Positions 21,791-29,758 of a DNA stretch of 64,000 nt are shown here, in pieces (the stretch's first letter is position 1; every line of letters begins with the position of its first letter). This DNA is from Gimesia algae (lineage in GTDB: Bacteria > Planctomycetota > Planctomycetia > Planctomycetales > Planctomycetaceae): positions 1,368,531 to 1,432,530 of the forward strand of contig NZ_CP036343.1 of the NCBI RefSeq assembly GCF_007746795.1, read 5' to 3'. A program made the position numbers and the translations under genes. The notes beneath the pieces were generated by a model that was not told where the DNA came from, searched no databases, and saw only the letters and a list, made by a program, of their open reading frames with translations.

Positions 21791-22879
21791 ATGAAATGGA
21801 TTAGTCTGTTAAGTGCATTTGTTGTGGCATTGGGGATGAATGCCGTTGCACAAGCAGATCTTTTTGACCTTTCGCTTAATTGCGGGGCTGCAAAGAGCTG
21901 TGAATGTGCCTCGACCTGTCAACCCGAGTGTTGTAAACCCACTATTACGAAACCATGTGAGCCTAACGTTTATACTTATCAACGTCAGTGTTCATCAATT
22001 AAACCACCTTGCTGCTGCGAAGCTGCACCAGCATGCTGCAAGCCAGCCCACAAACTGCGTGGCTGGTTCAAAAGACGCCGCTGCTCAGATTCTGGTTGTG
22101 CCCAGGATAACTGCTGCACCCCAGCTCCAAAAGCTTGCTGTGCTCCTGCTCCCAAAGCATGTGCCGCACCTGCTCCTAAAGCTTGCTGTGCACCAGCCCC
22201 TAAAGCCTGCTGTGCTCCTGCTCCTAAAGCATGTGCCGCTCCAGCTCCCAAGGCCTGCTGTGCTCCTGCTCCAAAAGCTTGCTGTGCACCAGCCCCTAAG
22301 ACCTGTGCTGCTCCTGCTGCAGACACCTGCTGCAACGAAGAACCTTGCTGCAACGCCGATCCTTGCGTGATTGCAGAATTGATCTACCAGTCACAGACTG
22401 CCTGCTACGCTAAACACCGTCGCAAAGCAATCCACAAACTGGGTGATCACTTCAACTGCGAATGCAATCCTGAGATCATGTGTGCTTTCATCTACGCTCT
22501 GAACGACGCTGACGAACGTGTTCGTGCCAAAGCTGCTGATGAAATCGGCGACCAGCTTCGCAAGCACTGCTGTGGATGCTCTCCTGAGCTGACAGCTGCT
22601 CTGACTTGTGCTCTGGGCGATTGCGACAAGAAGGTTGTTCGTGAAGCAACTCAGGCTCTGGAATTGTGTGGATACGAAGTTGTTGAAGGCTGCTGTGACA
22701 CACCTTGCTGTCACACAAATGGATGTGCTCCCGCTGGATGCTCACCATCAGCAGCTCCTGCTGCTCCTGCTCCTGCTTCTGATCCTAAAGCTTACTTCCC
22801 CAGCCGTCTGCAGAACCAGAAGCAGACACGTCGTCTGAGTGGAAACAGCCTGTCAAACCTGTTCGGACTGATTGACTAG
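21791..22879 (+). CDS. Secreted Cys-rich octapeptide-repeat protein with HEAT-like domain
   Basis: Signal peptide (about 1-22, LGMNAVAQA). About fifty of the 362 residues are cysteine. Residues 23-110 hold CC and CxC pairs, including CCCEAAPACC. Residues 111-174 are eight copies of PAPKAC(C/A)A. Residues 190-298 form paired amphipathic helices resembling HEAT repeats, each opened by C-x-C-x-PE (CECNPEIM, CGCSPELT). A second Cys cluster and an Ala/Pro linker end the chain. Probably an exported, disulfide-linked or metal-binding envelope component. AGGAG eight bases before the ATG is a strong binding site, and a strong terminator follows, suggesting high expression. Function unknown; planctomycete-restricted by impression only. 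Confidence 0.88.
   Translation: MKWISLLSAFVVALGMNAVAQADLFDLSLNCGAAKSCECASTCQPECCKPTITKPCEPNVYTYQRQCSSIKPPCCCEAAPACCKPAHKLRGWFKRRRCSDSGCAQDNCCTPAPKACCAPAPKACAAPAPKACCAPAPKACCAPAPKACAAPAPKACCAPAPKACCAPAPKTCAAPAADTCCNEEPCCNADPCVIAELIYQSQTACYAKHRRKAIHKLGDHFNCECNPEIMCAFIYALNDADERVRAKAADEIGDQLRKHCCGCSPELTAALTCALGDCDKKVVREATQALELCGYEVVEGCCDTPCCHTNGCAPAGCSPSAAPAAPAPASDPKAYFPSRLQNQKQTRRLSGNSLSNLFGLID
22121..22312 (+). repeat. Eight 24-bp coding repeats with a 72-bp super-period
   Basis: Each unit codes PAPKAC(C/A)A. The CC/CA choice runs CC, CA, CC, CC, CA, CC, CC, CA, so the array is best read as two and two-thirds copies of a 72-bp triple unit. Synonymous third-base differences separate the copies. 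Confidence 0.85.
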
Positions 22880-23351: not shown

Positions 23352-23870
23352 ATGCGACGTCGAAAATTTCTCAAACACTGCACGAGTATTCTGGGGTCCC
23401 TTTACGCCACAATCCTCGCAGTACCTGCTTTGGGCTTTTTGTTTTCGACTCTCAAAAGAGGCAAGCAAACAGAAAAACCATACCGCCTGGCGCGCCTGAA
23501 TGACCTGGAACCTGGTGTTCCACAGCGATTTACAATCATAGATCAGCGGGTTGATGCCTGGACCAAATATCCTTCCGGACCGATCGGTTCAGTCTGGCTC
23601 AGTAAATCGCAGGACGGGGCAGTCACCGCGTTCTCATCCACCTGTCCCCACCTGGGCTGCGTGGTTGATTATGTCGCCGGTGACGAAGAATACTTTTGCC
23701 CCTGTCATGCAGCTACCTTCCAGACAGATGGCGCAATGGTCAGTGGCCCACAGCCGCGGGGAATGGATGAGTTAAAGACAACCATCGAAACCATCCGGGG
23801 AGACCAGTGGGTCATGGTAGAATACCAGAAGTTTGAAACCGGCATCGCTGAAAAAGTTCCCATCGGTTAA
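23352..23870 (+). CDS. Rieske iron-sulfur protein of a cytochrome bc-type complex
   Basis: Carries electrons from quinol to cytochrome c in a bc/b6f-type complex. An N-terminal arginine-rich anchor (MRRRKFLKH, then a hydrophobic segment about 12-31) fits a Tat-exported, membrane-tethered subunit. The [2Fe-2S] site is complete: Cys98-x-His100 and Cys116-x-x-His119 as ligands, with Cys103 and Cys118 placed for the stabilising disulfide (CPHLGC, CPCHAA). 172 residues. The cytochrome b gene follows after 77 bases, so the two form an operon. The second Rieske box ends HAA where bc1 proteins usually have HGS. Confidence 0.95.
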   Translation: MRRRKFLKHCTSILGSLYATILAVPALGFLFSTLKRGKQTEKPYRLARLNDLEPGVPQRFTIIDQRVDAWTKYPSGPIGSVWLSKSQDGAVTAFSSTCPHLGCVVDYVAGDEEYFCPCHAATFQTDGAMVSGPQPRGMDELKTTIETIRGDQWVMVEYQKFETGIAEKVPIG

Positions 23871-23947: not shown

Positions 23948-25945
23948 GTGCTGCCTCAAAAAGCCCAACAGTGGATCGATGAACGAACCGGTTACAAAAA
24001 TTTCCTGCATGCGATCTTTCTGTTAAATTTCCCCACCAAACGACGCTCCCGCTGGCAATTCATCTGGGGAGGGGCACTCGTGTTGATGATGCTGGTGGAA
24101 ATGGTAACCGGCGCACTTCTAATGACTGTCTACAGCCCCTCGGAAGCATCTGCCTGGGGAAGCGTGCACTTTATTGAAACTCAGGTCGATCTGGGCTGGT
24201 TTGTACGCGGGTTACATCACTACACCGCACATATGATGATCGTGGCAATTATAGTGCACATCTTTCTGGTGATCATCTCAGCCGGTTATCGCAAGCCTAA
24301 AGAATTTATCTACTGGACCAGCCTGCTGATTGGCGGCGTCATCATTGGATTGACGATTACCGGTAACCCGCTGCCCTGGGACCAGAAAGGCTACTGGTCT
24401 TATCAGATTGAAACAGGTATCGCCGGTACCATGCCGGTTATAGGTTCAACTTTACGGTCCCTGGTAGTGGGGGGAAGTGAATTCGGCAATCTGACTCTCA
24501 CCCGGCTCTATACAATCCATGTGATTGTCCTGCCCGTCATCGCCATGTTGCTGTTTACGTTTCATATGGCGCTCATCCGTCGGGAACGTCTGCGGACTGC
24601 GAAAATAAAAGAAGCAGCCGATGATCCGGAAGTCGACTTTCAGCTGGATGAAGATGACCCGGTCAAAGATGAAATCACCCAACCTTACTGGCCTTACCAG
24701 ACCACACGCACACTGGTGCTGACTCTGGTACTGATCGGTATCGTGATTATTCAGATGATCGTTTATCCCGCCCTCAAAAATCAGCACGTCTCAGTCGGCC
24801 ATCTGGACTGGGAGGCAGATCTGCCTGCCAGCGAGATCAAACTGGAAGCTCCCGCAGACAGTTCAATCCCTTATGTCGCACGTCCTGAATGGTTTGTCCG
24901 GTTTCTGTTTGAACTGCGACATATGGTTCCTAAAGAGATGGAAGTCCTGGTGACAGCAGTACTACCCGGAGTCATTCTGGCAGTATTGTTCCTCGTTCCC
25001 TTTTACGAAAAAGTTTTGGGTGAGAAGTGGGGGCAGCGGGTCGCCATCATTGTCTATGTCGGTGGTTTACTCATTATCTCTGGTATCAGCTGGTATGGCG
25101 TTAAGATGGAACGCAGCGCACCAAACTACGCTCTGAATCGGTCACAGGAAGTCGCTTATGCAGCCCGGGCTTCCTGGTTGGCCAGCCAGAATGGTGTTCC
25201 CCCTGAAGGTCCCGACTTCCTGCTGAGGAACGATCCCAAATCGATGGGGCCCCTGATTTTCGCACGGCACTGTGGTATCTGCCATACATGGAATGGCCAT
25301 GACGGAACAGGCCACAATATCATGGAAATGAAAGATGGTAAAAAAGTCAAAGCCACTCCCCGGGCTTCCGATCTGGCAGGTTTCGCCACCACTCAATGGC
25401 TGACGGAATTTCTGATGAACCCCAGATCGCCGAAATTTTTTGGTCATGTCGGATCGACAAAAGGTGGCGACGCTATCCTCAACGGTGATATGAGCGACTG
25501 GGCAGACAGCTATGTCGGGCCGGAAGGCATTCTCACCAAAGCAGACATCGAAGCAGTGGCAGCTCTGGTAGCTCGTGAAGCAAACCGCAGAGATTTTAAA
25601 CCGCTGAGTGAAGAAGTTGTTAAGCGAGGCATCTCAGTCTTCAGTGGTATCGACTTCAAAGATAAATCAGGCAAGGTCGCTGAATTTTATGGCTACTGTG
25701 CTCAGTGTCACGCGATGAAAGCAGGCGACCCGGAAGAAGAAGGAGGCGGTGCTGCCCCGGACTTCAACGGATACGGATCTGAAAAGTGGCTGGCTGATTT
25801 CATCCGCAAACCAGGAGCAGAACGCTTCTATGGCGACAAAAACATCATGCCTGCCTTTGAAGAATCAAAACTCTCAAAACACGACCTGAACCTGCTCGTC
25901 AAATGGATGCGCGGAGAATGGCAGCGCCCTGAACAGGAAAAATAA
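23948..25945 (+). CDS. Cytochrome b fused to two c-type cytochrome domains
   Basis: Quinol-oxidising core of the respiratory bc complex. GTG start with AGGGAGA upstream. The N-terminal half (1-215) is a b6-type four-helix bundle: His90/His104 and His191/His206, spaced 14 and 15 as in cytochrome b6. Two to three further helices (about 255-275, 335-355, 363-383) replace subunit IV. The C-terminal 230 residues hold two haem c sites, CGICH (442-446) and CAQCH (584-588), so cytochrome b and the electron-accepting cytochrome c are one 665-residue chain. The canonical PEWY motif of the Qo site appears as ARPEWFVRFLF around residue 314. No separate cytochrome c1 gene is present. Confidence 0.93.
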   Translation: MLPQKAQQWIDERTGYKNFLHAIFLLNFPTKRRSRWQFIWGGALVLMMLVEMVTGALLMTVYSPSEASAWGSVHFIETQVDLGWFVRGLHHYTAHMMIVAIIVHIFLVIISAGYRKPKEFIYWTSLLIGGVIIGLTITGNPLPWDQKGYWSYQIETGIAGTMPVIGSTLRSLVVGGSEFGNLTLTRLYTIHVIVLPVIAMLLFTFHMALIRRERLRTAKIKEAADDPEVDFQLDEDDPVKDEITQPYWPYQTTRTLVLTLVLIGIVIIQMIVYPALKNQHVSVGHLDWEADLPASEIKLEAPADSSIPYVARPEWFVRFLFELRHMVPKEMEVLVTAVLPGVILAVLFLVPFYEKVLGEKWGQRVAIIVYVGGLLIISGISWYGVKMERSAPNYALNRSQEVAYAARASWLASQNGVPPEGPDFLLRNDPKSMGPLIFARHCGICHTWNGHDGTGHNIMEMKDGKKVKATPRASDLAGFATTQWLTEFLMNPRSPKFFGHVGSTKGGDAILNGDMSDWADSYVGPEGILTKADIEAVAALVAREANRRDFKPLSEEVVKRGISVFSGIDFKDKSGKVAEFYGYCAQCHAMKAGDPEEEGGGAAPDFNGYGSEKWLADFIRKPGAERFYGDKNIMPAFEESKLSKHDLNLLVKWMRGEWQRPEQEK

Positions 25946-26173: not shown

Positions 26174-26202
26174 TTGCACCGTTATTACACTTGTGGTAAC
26201 AC
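26174..26202 (+). promoter_or_regulatory. Tentative promoter of the blaI-like operon
   Basis: TTGCAC, a 17-base gap and TAACAC. The -35 is good, the -10 weak. Both operator dyads overlap or directly follow it, as expected for repression by BlaI. Confidence 0.4.
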
Positions 26203-26230
26203 TAATCCAGAACATTACTACACACGTAGT
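26185..26230 (+). promoter_or_regulatory. Double dyad, probable BlaI operator
   Basis: Two palindromes precede the repressor gene: TTACACTTGTGGTAA (26185-26199) and ACTACACACGTAGT (26217-26230). The second resembles the TACAnnTGTA-type core bound by BlaI/MecI. Position and spacing suit autoregulation. Confidence 0.55.
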
Positions 26231-26243
26231 CACAAGGGATACC

Positions 26244-26690
26244 ATGAGTCAGCGATCAGAATTACAAATCACTGAGGCAGAATGGGATGTGATGCTCAGC
26301 GTCTGGGAAGCAGACGACCAGACAGCCGGCGAAATCATCGCCCGCGTCGAACCAATTCAAAAGCGAAGTCATCGAACTGTGAGAACGCTTCTCACGCGTC
26401 TGGTCGAAAAGGGTGCAGTCACAGTGCGCATTGATGGTTCACGACATCTCTATCGTGCGGCAGTCACGCGCAATGAATGTGTTCGTCTGGCAGCCCGCTC
26501 CTTCACAGACAGATTCTTTGCCGGGGACCTGCAGTCATTATTGATCCATTTTGTCGAGAATGAAACGCTTTCCAGTGACGAAGTAGAAGAACTCAGGCAA
26601 CGTTTAGATGAACGTCTCACAGAAAAGTCAGAACCGAATGCTAACCAAGCTACCAACAAATCATCTTCAAGACGGAGAAAGAAAAAATGA
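26244..26690 (+). CDS. BlaI/MecI-family transcriptional repressor
   Basis: Winged-helix repressor that is cleaved when its partner M56 protease is activated. The wHTH covers about residues 8-75 (ITEAEWDVMLSVWE, RTVRTLLTRLVEKGAV, RHLYRAAV), with a dimerisation helix at 85-130 and a basic tail ending SSRRRKKK. ATG 26244 is chosen because AAGGGA lies six bases upstream; an earlier in-frame GTG-like start at 26193 would overlap the operator. The stop overlaps the protease start in ATGA, so the pair is translationally coupled. 148 residues, against about 126 in classical BlaI; the extra length is the tail. Confidence 0.92.
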   Translation: MSQRSELQITEAEWDVMLSVWEADDQTAGEIIARVEPIQKRSHRTVRTLLTRLVEKGAVTVRIDGSRHLYRAAVTRNECVRLAARSFTDRFFAGDLQSLLIHFVENETLSSDEVEELRQRLDERLTEKSEPNANQATNKSSSRRRKKK

Positions 26691-29600
26691 ACTTCGATTT
26701 TGAATTGACCACGTTATGGGCACTTGTCTGGCGTGCCACCTGGCAGGCATTCGTACTGGCTGGCATCATCTTTTTCCTAACCTCGACAATGCACCGCTGG
26801 ATTTCACCCAAATGGCGTGCACTACTGTGGGCTATTCCGCTAACACGACTGGCTGTACTGCTGATTCCAGCAAGCGGATTGAGTCTCTTCCATTTTCTAG
26901 AATTTGAAAAAAGAAATTCAACCCCCGCTGCCGCGGTCTCCTCCTTTGAATCGACTGCCATAGGATTCACTTCCCGCCCAGATTCGCTTCAGTCAGATCA
27001 CCGGAACCCAAATACTGCGATGGCTCAAGAATACCACGCGTCGAACACTCCAGTCATTCTGCCACAAGAGTCTCAAACCAGCGTCCCCATTTCGCGTTCC
27101 GGTATTTTGGCGTTTCTCTGGCTGACTGGTTGTTGCGTTCTGCTTTGCAGATGGATCGGTTCCAAAATCATATTGGCACGCATCATCAAAAATAGTGAAC
27201 TGCTCCGGGATATAGGTCTGCTTAAGCTGATTGAAGAGAGACAAAAGCGGGACAGACTCTGGTTCCCGGTTCACTGTTTCGTTACCGATGCTCATATTGG
27301 ACCGTCCACTTGTGGATTCTGGCGGCCGACCATTTTGCTGCCCCAAAATTTGTGGTCAGATTTCGGCGAAGAGGAACGGCAGGCGATTGTCAACCATGAA
27401 CTGGAACACATACGCCGCTGTGACGTGTTACTGCTACTCATCAGCCGTATCGCCATCACCATTCACTGGTTCAACCCGTTAGCCTATCTAATCAGCCATC
27501 GGATGCGCCGTGAAATAGAACAGGCCGTGGATTCTGCTACGGTTAAGAATTTCGATGAGCAAGCACGCCATGCTTATGGTGAGTTATTAATCCGCCTTGC
27601 CCGGCAGACACAGGGGCCAGTTGCTGCGCTCCCTATGGCGGGCAAACGTTCTGCGCTGCGTGCACGCATCAATCAGTTGGCTAATCCGGTCCGGGAGAGT
27701 CGAACCAGATCCGCTTTCGCGATTTGCGTGTTGCTGATTTTCATTGTCACAGGCTTGAGTGATGTGGCACGGACGGAAGAACAACCTGAATCGAACAAAA
27801 AGAGCCCAGCGGTCTCCACCAGACCAGAACAGCCCCCCGAGAGCAAACCACAAGACCAATACTTCGTCACAGGCACCGTTCGAGATGCGCGCACAGGTAA
27901 ACCGGTTTCGGACGCAGAAATCCGAATGTTTGTCGCCTCCGAACCAGTTGTTAATCAGAGAGAAAGAAAGGGGATCACAAATGACAAAGGTCAGTATCGC
28001 ATTGAAGTCCCTTTAGGAAATGTGCAAATCTGGTTTCCCACTTTAAAACCGGGGTACTGGCTCCTGCCTGAAGAATGCACGCAAGCGTTAGTCACGACGG
28101 CTGAAAATCCCGTGCTGGAACACAACATCAAAGCCCAATCGGGCCCCATCTGGAATATTCATTGGAAAGGCAAGCTCAACGAACAGCAACTGAAGTTCCT
28201 GACCGCGCATCTCAAGGACCAGCCGATCCAATACCGGGTGTCCCTTGGGGAAGTGGAAGACGATGCAAAACGGGACGCCTGGCTAAAGGGAGAACCGGTC
28301 TCGTTCCAGAAAGCTTACGCCAGTTCCGTGAGCAATCTGGATCAGTCAGGTCGCGGCAAACTGACGCAAGTGGGAACGAGCGGCAAATATATTTTGACAC
28401 TCGTCAATATGACAGCCGAGCTGATTGTGGAAACTGGCTTTGACAATACTCGGGTCGTCTCGCTGAAGCAGATTCCCGATACTGAAAAAACAGTGATGAT
28501 CGATGCCTCGGGAAAGAAAGCCACTGTCAGTAAAGCGACCGTCACACTCACCGACGGCGTTCCTTTACTTACCTTTCAGACCGTAGCAGCGAAACCGGCT
28601 GGCTATCAGAGGCTGACCGGTCGTGTCGTGGACGAGAAAGGGAATCCACTCGCTAATGTGCGGGTCGGAGTGATCGAAGGCTTAAAGGGGGGAGGCAGTG
28701 GTGAAACGGGACAAGAAACCAAGACCACTGATGATGGAACATTCTCTATAAAACTTCCGATATATGATAACCAGGTATTTAATAATCAGCAATTTTCGGT
28801 CATGCTGACAAAAGACGGTTTCGCTGGCATGGACTCAGAAATCGTGGAAGCCAAAAAGGATTTCTCCCCCATCAACTTCAAGACACTCACGCTCCAACCG
28901 GGCCACACACTTTCGATCCGCGTTCTGGACGAAAAGGAACAGCCCCTGGCGGGAGCAATACTGGAACCCGGTAATGATTATGCTTTGAGGCGCCAGATCA
29001 CCCGGACTGACTCTGCTGGCCGGGGTCTATTAAAAAACTTACCGAGTGGAGTAGTTCAAGTCTCCGTCCACTGGGGCACGAAAATCAAATGGACCAATCT
29101 GGTGATCAGCAAAAACCAGTCTAAAAATCAGGAAGTTACGATTCATGTCAATGAGTTCGTACCTGCTACCACATCCAAGGTAGAAAAATCCAAACCGCTG
29201 GCCGTCGGTCAGATTGCCCCTGAGTGGGATATTGCGGAGTGGTCAGATGGACAAACCCGTAAACTCTCCGACTTTCGCGGTCAGGTGGTAGTACTTGATT
29301 TCTGGGGTCTCCGCTGCAGTGGCTGCGTCGCTTCCATTCCTGCACAGAAACGACTGGCACAGAAATACAGAGCGCAAGGCGTTATCTTCCTGGGCATCCA
29401 CACAGCGGATGGAGAAATGAGCCAGATCAAAAAGCTGAAACAGAGTGAGCAGTGGACAATCCCAACGGGAATTGATCAAGGAACCTCAATTCTGGATAGC
29501 GAGACGGGAAAGAAATATGGCGTGCAAGGATATCCGGCACTGATTGTCATCAATCCGGAAGGCCAGATCACATTTCGCAGCGATGTCAATCCTCCGGGGG

Positions 29601-29758
29601 ATCGTGAAGCTTTCATGAAAACCCTGGCCGAAGCGAGCGGCGTGAAATGGCCGCCCGCGGAGAATGCCACTCAAGCTGAGATGATAGAAATCATGAACCA
29701 ACTTCAATTTACAATACTGAGCCAGGAAATAGACCGCGTACTGAAAACGAAAAAATAA
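26687..29758 (+). CDS. BlaR1-like M56 metallopeptidase fused to C-terminal thioredoxin domain
   Basis: 1023 residues. Membrane helices at about 11-33 and 42-66, and 138-158, then a cytoplasmic zinc protease with HELEH (about 236-240) and the downstream EIEQAVDSA element, then a last helix (about 342-360). In BlaR1 the part after this helix is outside the cell and senses the signal. Here it is not a penicillin-binding domain: it has three carboxypeptidase-regulatory-like beta-sandwich segments (about 390-470, 640-720, 740-800) and a TlpA/redoxin domain (about 840-985) with the active pair CSGC (876-879) in FWGLRCSGC. The gene overlaps blaI by four bases. Sensing of redox state or of a cell-envelope thiol is inferred. 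Confidence 0.9.
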   Translation: MNFDFELTTLWALVWRATWQAFVLAGIIFFLTSTMHRWISPKWRALLWAIPLTRLAVLLIPASGLSLFHFLEFEKRNSTPAAAVSSFESTAIGFTSRPDSLQSDHRNPNTAMAQEYHASNTPVILPQESQTSVPISRSGILAFLWLTGCCVLLCRWIGSKIILARIIKNSELLRDIGLLKLIEERQKRDRLWFPVHCFVTDAHIGPSTCGFWRPTILLPQNLWSDFGEEERQAIVNHELEHIRRCDVLLLLISRIAITIHWFNPLAYLISHRMRREIEQAVDSATVKNFDEQARHAYGELLIRLARQTQGPVAALPMAGKRSALRARINQLANPVRESRTRSAFAICVLLIFIVTGLSDVARTEEQPESNKKSPAVSTRPEQPPESKPQDQYFVTGTVRDARTGKPVSDAEIRMFVASEPVVNQRERKGITNDKGQYRIEVPLGNVQIWFPTLKPGYWLLPEECTQALVTTAENPVLEHNIKAQSGPIWNIHWKGKLNEQQLKFLTAHLKDQPIQYRVSLGEVEDDAKRDAWLKGEPVSFQKAYASSVSNLDQSGRGKLTQVGTSGKYILTLVNMTAELIVETGFDNTRVVSLKQIPDTEKTVMIDASGKKATVSKATVTLTDGVPLLTFQTVAAKPAGYQRLTGRVVDEKGNPLANVRVGVIEGLKGGGSGETGQETKTTDDGTFSIKLPIYDNQVFNNQQFSVMLTKDGFAGMDSEIVEAKKDFSPINFKTLTLQPGHTLSIRVLDEKEQPLAGAILEPGNDYALRRQITRTDSAGRGLLKNLPSGVVQVSVHWGTKIKWTNLVISKNQSKNQEVTIHVNEFVPATTSKVEKSKPLAVGQIAPEWDIAEWSDGQTRKLSDFRGQVVVLDFWGLRCSGCVASIPAQKRLAQKYRAQGVIFLGIHTADGEMSQIKKLKQSEQWTIPTGIDQGTSILDSETGKKYGVQGYPALIVINPEGQITFRSDVNPPGDREAFMKTLAEASGVKWPPAENATQAEMIEIMNQLQFTILSQEIDRVLKTKK

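Follow-up and report, generated by a model that had tools for sequence, protein, structure and literature searches.

A BlaI–M56 gene pair of Gimesia algae with beta-sandwich modules and a redoxin in the place of a penicillin sensor

BlaR1 has been studied as an antibiotic sensor. What does its proteolytic machinery serve when no penicillin-binding domain is attached to it? We asked this of a two-gene cassette in a 64,000-nucleotide stretch of the Gimesia algae genome (assembly GCF_007746795.1, contig NZ_CP036343.1, positions 1,368,531 to 1,432,530; the window), in which a gene for a BlaI-family repressor overlaps a gene for an M56-family zinc protease whose exported part holds beta-sandwich modules and a redoxin domain. 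Our analysis suggests that the cassette is probably a proteolytic anti-repressor of the BlaR1/BlaI type, fitted with an exported sensor for something other than beta-lactams and closed on itself. Coordinates are those of the window, and all features of the cassette lie on the + strand.

The gene pair and its exported arm

The repressor gene blaI runs from the ATG at 26244 to the end of its stop codon at 26690, and the M56 open reading frame (ORF) from the ATG at 26687 to the end of its stop codon at 29758 (1023 residues); the two overlap by 4 bp (ATGA). The repressor matched Penicillinase_R (PF03965) over the full length of the profile (1-115 of 115, E = 4e-31) and the structure of Staphylococcus aureus BlaI (1sd4) with E = 1.2e-20. 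The cut sites of S. aureus BlaI and BlaR1 were taken from PMC9834060. In the alignment with 1sd4, N101-F102 falls on H102-F103 of the window's BlaI, the expected cleavage bond, so that F103 matches the Phe at P1' of the S. aureus BlaI cut.

The relatives examined comprised 40 genomes, 16 of them from the same genus. Five of these 16 (G006, G008, G012, G014 and G016; G000 denotes the genome holding the window) contain an orthologue, 67-74% identical where whole. Two distant orthologues were among the matches listed from a collection of named genomes: L111, complete, from a Pirellula-like metagenome-assembled genome (39% identity in tblastn, 41% in the alignment), and L110 (37-39%), whose sequence ends before the redoxin. 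The P1' Phe of BlaI is present in all eight cassettes.

We place the blaI promoter, from the sequence, at 26174-26202, with the -35 hexamer TTGCAC at 26174-26179, a 17-bp spacer and the -10 hexamer TAACAC at 26197-26202. These hexamers are poor by consensus, and a consensus scan ranked other hexamers there higher; orthologue L110 has TTGACA-17-TAAACT at the equivalent place and spacing. Two candidate operator dyads accompany the promoter: O1 (TTATTACACTTGTGGTAAC, 26182-26200) lies within the 17-bp spacer, and O2 (TTACTACACACGTAGTCAC, 26215-26233) lies 33 bp 3' of O1, ahead of the blaI start. As a twin they outscore 59 of 60 dinucleotide shuffles, and twin operators were found upstream of blaI in 8/8 cassettes. 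Such predicted dyads at the repressor's own promoter are a mark of the BlaI/MecI family.

Residues 14-330 of the M56 protein (26726-27676) matched Peptidase_M56 (PF05569; E = 3.2e-43, 148 bits), and the sole solved relative of this part at E <= 0.1 is BlaR1. In the alignment with BlaR1 (8exp), H237, E238 and H241 of the HELEH motif (residues 237-241), together with E278, D282 and R327, fall on the zinc and catalytic set and are invariant in our alignment A2; the protein has the HExxH motif, downstream Glu ligand and Asp/Arg pair of the M56 family. Judged by its conserved zinc, catalytic and BlaI-cleavage positions, this is a complete BlaR1-type protease. The Ser-Phe bond of BlaR1 autocleavage is not kept: P316-M317 aligns on S283-F284, and another bond may serve. 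No penicillin-binding sensor was among the Pfam and NCBIfam matches of the protein at E <= 1, and the model blaR1_generic reached 108 bits against a cut-off of 400, over the N-terminal half of the model only.

The last membrane helix is placed at residues 339-355 (27701-27751), with basic residues ahead of it and the exported part behind, from the sequence and a low-confidence full-length model (mean pLDDT, the predicted local distance difference test, 42.6) that was used for rough secondary structure only. CarboxypepD_reg (PF13620) matched three stretches of the protein (E = 1.4e-19). The exported part begins with a transthyretin (TTR)/prealbumin-like module (residues 389-487; 27851-28147), in which CarbopepD_reg_2 matched weakly at residues 394-448 and whose model resembles the B-type module of SdrD (Z 9.6). 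Two TTR-like modules with PF13620 matches are located at residues 639-739 (28601-28903; similar to the TTR-like domain of carboxypeptidase D, 5aq0, Z 11.3) and 740-824 (28904-29158; similar to those of carboxypeptidases N and M, Z 10.7-10.9). Between the annotated sandwiches sits a beta region of about residues 488-633 (28148-28585) that matched no Pfam model and contains the conserved motif LTQVG(T/S)SG (alignment A2). A search with residues 389-838 against PDB sequences gave no match at E <= 1. The model of the exported beta part was of moderate confidence (mean pLDDT 72.4; predicted template modelling score, pTM, 0.46); its Foldseek and VIA-align matches were mostly pilin, TTR and carboxypeptidase-like sandwiches and barely covered the unnamed region. 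This sandwich fold is common and indicates no function.

The redoxin domain occupies residues 840-970 (29204-29596; AhpC-TSA at residues 840-963, E = 7.9e-15), with CSGC at residues 877-880 (29315-29326), and is followed by a C-terminal helical tail (residues 986-1023; 29642-29755) common to other redoxin proteins of the group. The nearest solved redoxins are mostly of the ResA/DsbE type (best 4nmu, 1e-9). A thioredoxin-type domain with CxxC, as in ResA/TlpA-type proteins, is present in the window; the CxxC is missing in G012. Similar redoxins occur in other settings. L202 (3417-5390) encodes an apparently secreted protein of 658 residues with the same redoxin and C-terminal tail (WCGPC) and no M56 part; L105 (3-2216) is a single open frame that contains sigma-70 region 4 (Pfam 1e-10) and ends in a C-terminal redoxin (8.6e-18). 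The redoxin proteins of L100 and L202, of the secreted CarboxypepD_reg-redoxin type, match no transducer. Its occurrence in secreted proteins and in a sigma-70 fusion marks this kind of redoxin as a widely reused module.

The initial annotation of the window had named a BlaI gene with operator dyads and a four-base overlap, a BlaR1-like protease without a penicillin sensor, three beta-sandwich modules in the exported part and a CSGC redoxin fused to the protease. All of these were borne out, with beta sandwiches and redoxin standing in the sensor's place; the beta region at residues 488-633 is an addition.

The 26 pairs and the reach of their operators

The host genome (7.93 Mb, a single contig) gave 26 M56 and 26 BlaI matches, the window pair being one of 26, and every M56 gene has a same-strand blaI upstream (26/26). 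HExxH is present in 25 of the 26 M56 proteins. The remaining one, 1909351 (G000:C1:1909351-1909998; L030:4853-5947), has YEWSH instead, hardly any exported part and an intact upstream blaI; by its sequence it is likely a dead protease. The exported parts differ: CarboxypepD_reg is above the cut-off in 11 of the 26, secretin in one and DUF1559 in one, and other exported parts match nothing. At L011:4634-6940 and L029:4585-7401 the matches are to secretin (weak, just over the cut-off) or DUF1559/SBP_bac_10. Besides the window's CSGC, thioredoxin-like C-termini were seen in 271922 (CGPC), 5022511 (CAPC; Pfam scores below cut-off) and 5069589, which is without CxxC and aligns with the window redoxin at 2.1e-12. 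In this genome it is normal for the exported part to be exchanged, and the redoxin is one option among several. The initial annotation had seen a switch of a new kind; with the window pair one of 26 and the exported part routinely swapped, this is not supported, and the cassette is a variant of the BlaR1/BlaI kind.

Twin dyads stand out, equalled by no more than 3 of 60 shuffles, at 16 of the 26 promoters and not at the remaining 10, and the operator half-sites differ between most of the pairs. The pairs 5028444 and 5817527 (L016:11997-13814 and L019:4995-6812), whose M56 proteins are 91% identical, share an operator and are therefore probably cross-regulating.

We searched six genomes (G006 being 76% complete) for the window's operator pattern, allowing up to 2 mismatches and one spacing. 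Sites with at most 1 mismatch were found only at the cassette's own promoter, in 6/6 genomes; a reversed control pattern matched more often than the operator pattern in each of the six. The visible target is thus the cassette itself. There were 11 further places with 2 mismatches, 10 of which were inspected: seven lay within long ORFs and three in or near intergenic gaps. With the operators of paralogues 259653 and 581972, too, the only sites located were those at the respective own promoters.

A proposed circuit and what its arm may sense

We propose the following circuit. BlaI dimers on O1 and O2 would silence the blaI-M56 promoter. The M56 protein would span the membrane, and an outside event felt by the arm of beta sandwiches and redoxin would shift the last helix and open the inner zinc protease. 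The opened protease would cut BlaI at H102-F103, and the operon would be induced, giving more M56-redoxin protein and fresh repressor. Since no other close operator was found, the main product would be the M56-redoxin protein itself. Cleavage of this BlaI by the protease, a sensing role for the arm and the lack of weaker operators acting elsewhere are inferred.

Several observations weigh against this circuit. O1 of the window already differs from the pattern by 2 mismatches, and the search was limited to 2 mismatches and one spacing. The three intergenic-type places with 2 mismatches (in G014, G016 and G012), each matched in a single genome, make a weak second target possible. The P1' Phe of BlaR1 autocleavage is Met317 here, paralogue 1909351 lacks HExxH, and the G008 orthologue (L092:7392-10635) is frameshifted at the end of the protease part, which splits off the exported part.

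As to what is sensed, the arm may respond to a ligand, peptide, glycan or envelope stress; the redoxin would then be a binding module or a remnant that still folds, and signalling would involve no redox step. We regard this as a real possibility, if somewhat short of an even chance. Exported parts vary widely over the 26 paralogues, as described above, and the Cys motif is lost in one orthologue and one paralogous lineage: G012/L108 has YAGC instead of CxxC, and in the lineage of M56-redoxin proteins typified by 5069589 there is no CxxC at the equivalent place in 6/6 aligned proteins, the fold and tail being kept. However, the redoxin is under strong purifying selection; the low ratio of nonsynonymous to synonymous divergence (dN/dS) in this segment (for example 0.07/0.73 to G006, 0.11/1.98 to G016) indicates constraint. 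Both Cys, moreover, are kept in six of the seven orthologues with a readable redoxin: CSGC in the window, G006, G008 and G016, CKGC in G014 and CSPC in L111.

Another reading is a redox or thiol switch: a disulphide made or reduced at CSGC would set off the cleavage of BlaI. This appears unlikely to us. The same six orthologues keep the cis-Pro region as well, including the 39-41% identical one with WCSPC; between G000 and G016 the redoxin, at 81% against 62-75% elsewhere in the protein, ranks among the best-conserved parts, and a second paralogue, 271922, has CGPC. A kept CxxC would, however, also be expected of an enzyme that does not sense, and in the genus the residue ahead of the first Cys is Arg or Ser where Trp is usual, while the Pro is replaced by Gly. 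The loss of the motif in one orthologue and one paralogous lineage argues against a strict need for the Cys pair. The redox or thiol trigger of the initial annotation is thus not supported as stated. An ordinary beta-lactam resistance circuit, to which the family resemblance of BlaI and M56 would point, was rejected as very improbable: no penicillin-binding domain was among the Pfam and NCBIfam matches, the Pfam lists of the genome's 26 M56 proteins contained no Transpeptidase or beta-lactamase-type domain, no beta-lactamase gene was among the neighbours identified, and the NCBIfam BlaR1, MecR1, BlaI and MecI models scored far below their cut-offs.

Distribution, divergence by blocks and known systems

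The two halves of the M56 protein differ in their divergence. Compared with G014 and G016, the window protein is 68-77% identical over residues 1-335 and 43-64% over residues 336-835, whereas the values for G012, G006 and G008 are 41-60% and 74-88%. Synonymous divergence (dS) follows the same pattern: to G012, the protease part gave 2.03 and 1.45, the exported part 0.33 and 0.60, and the flanking cytochrome gene 0.94; the corresponding values to G014 were 0.57 and 0.92, 1.44 and 1.20, and 1.70 for the flank. Between G014 and G016, dS was 0.23-0.31 in the flanks and 0.47-1.26 in the M56 gene. These values fit an exchange of blocks with a border near residue 335, at the junction of protease part and last helix. 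Trees of the two halves showed no mutual conflict, and approximately unbiased (AU) tests failed to reject the alternatives; the case for block exchange therefore rests on the contrast in dS and identity.

A more speculative extension of the proposed circuit, which we consider doubtful, is that sensor and effector are merged. The repressor would target its own operon only, the product would be the exported redoxin arm, and the genome would hold 26 insulated, self-inducing surface-protein pairs, many with their own operator, whose transducing and exported halves are traded between species as blocks.

Eight of the 11 same-genus genomes without the cassette were examined. In six, the flanking genes directly adjoin, with about 45 bp between the end of the cytochrome b-c gene and S41, a gene convergent to it (S41 is shortened in one); the other two have other neighbours. 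The neighbours of the L110 and L111 cassettes also differ from those in the window. These empty sites and differing neighbours indicate that the cassette is accessory and self-contained. A functional link to the upstream Rieske and cytochrome b-c genes was rejected as general because L110 and L111 have other neighbours and six genomes keep the genes without the cassette. In the window, a gene that joins cytochrome b with two cytochrome c domains (23948-25945) lies beside the Rieske gene (23352-23870), and the protein encoded at 21791-22879 is Cys-rich and has HEAT repeats as well as repeats of the CCAPAPKAC type. The frameshifted G008 orthologue has its upstream blaI and operators intact.

In other taxa, 77 of 84 M56 ORFs among the matches listed (77 loci) had a same-strand blaI upstream; 77 of 79 loci were used, L108 and L109 being set aside as close orthologues, and the survey covered taxa other than Bacteroidota. 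A profile of three sequences that we built ourselves detected the redoxin fusion in one of these 84 ORFs, L111. Over 59 genomes of the phylum, the copy numbers of M56 and BlaI correlate with r = 0.986, or 0.977 once the window's genome is removed. The totals are 153 M56, a figure that includes weak matches, and 139 BlaI, and no other genome has as many copies as the window's. A search of 294 phylum genomes with the full-length protein returned only the window's own; this is a weak negative, because scoring at E <= 1e-40 was confined to two candidates from each genome. Among the papers listed by an open library, none named an M56-redoxin protein or a planctomycete BlaI-M56 pair.

The proteolytic logic of BlaR1 here serves exported domains without a visible penicillin connection. 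A single genome repeats the arrangement 26 times, each protease having its own repressor, and genome-wide searches with three of the operators showed close copies nowhere but at the own promoter. It thus becomes testable what M56 anti-repressors are used for in general: what is sensed, and why each drives itself only. Natural variation in the CxxC, and a protease and arm that diverge in block-like fashion, offer ready comparisons for such tests.

Like BlaR1/BlaI of Staphylococcus aureus and Bacillus licheniformis (and MecR1/MecI), the cassette combines a repressor and a membrane zinc protease in an operon with operators at its promoter, and it keeps the zinc ligands, the catalytic Asp and Arg, and a Phe at P1' of the BlaI cut. 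In contrast to these systems, it has TTR-like modules and a redoxin standing in for the penicillin sensor, no neighbouring beta-lactamase or penicillin-binding protein target, Met at P1' of the autocleavage site, and close operators in its genome only at its own promoter. With the ResA/TlpA/DsbE oxidoreductases it shares the AhpC-TSA/redoxin fold, the CxxC and the downstream Pro region; however, its redoxin is fused to a transducer, has CSGC after Arg in the genus rather than WCxPC, and scores 59 bits against the NCBIfam ResA cut-off of 170. The planctomycete secreted CarboxypepD_reg-redoxin proteins and the sigma-factor-redoxin fusion have a similar redoxin, and L202 shares the C-terminal tail, but L100, L202 and L105 have no M56 match, and L105 carries sigma-70 region 4 instead.

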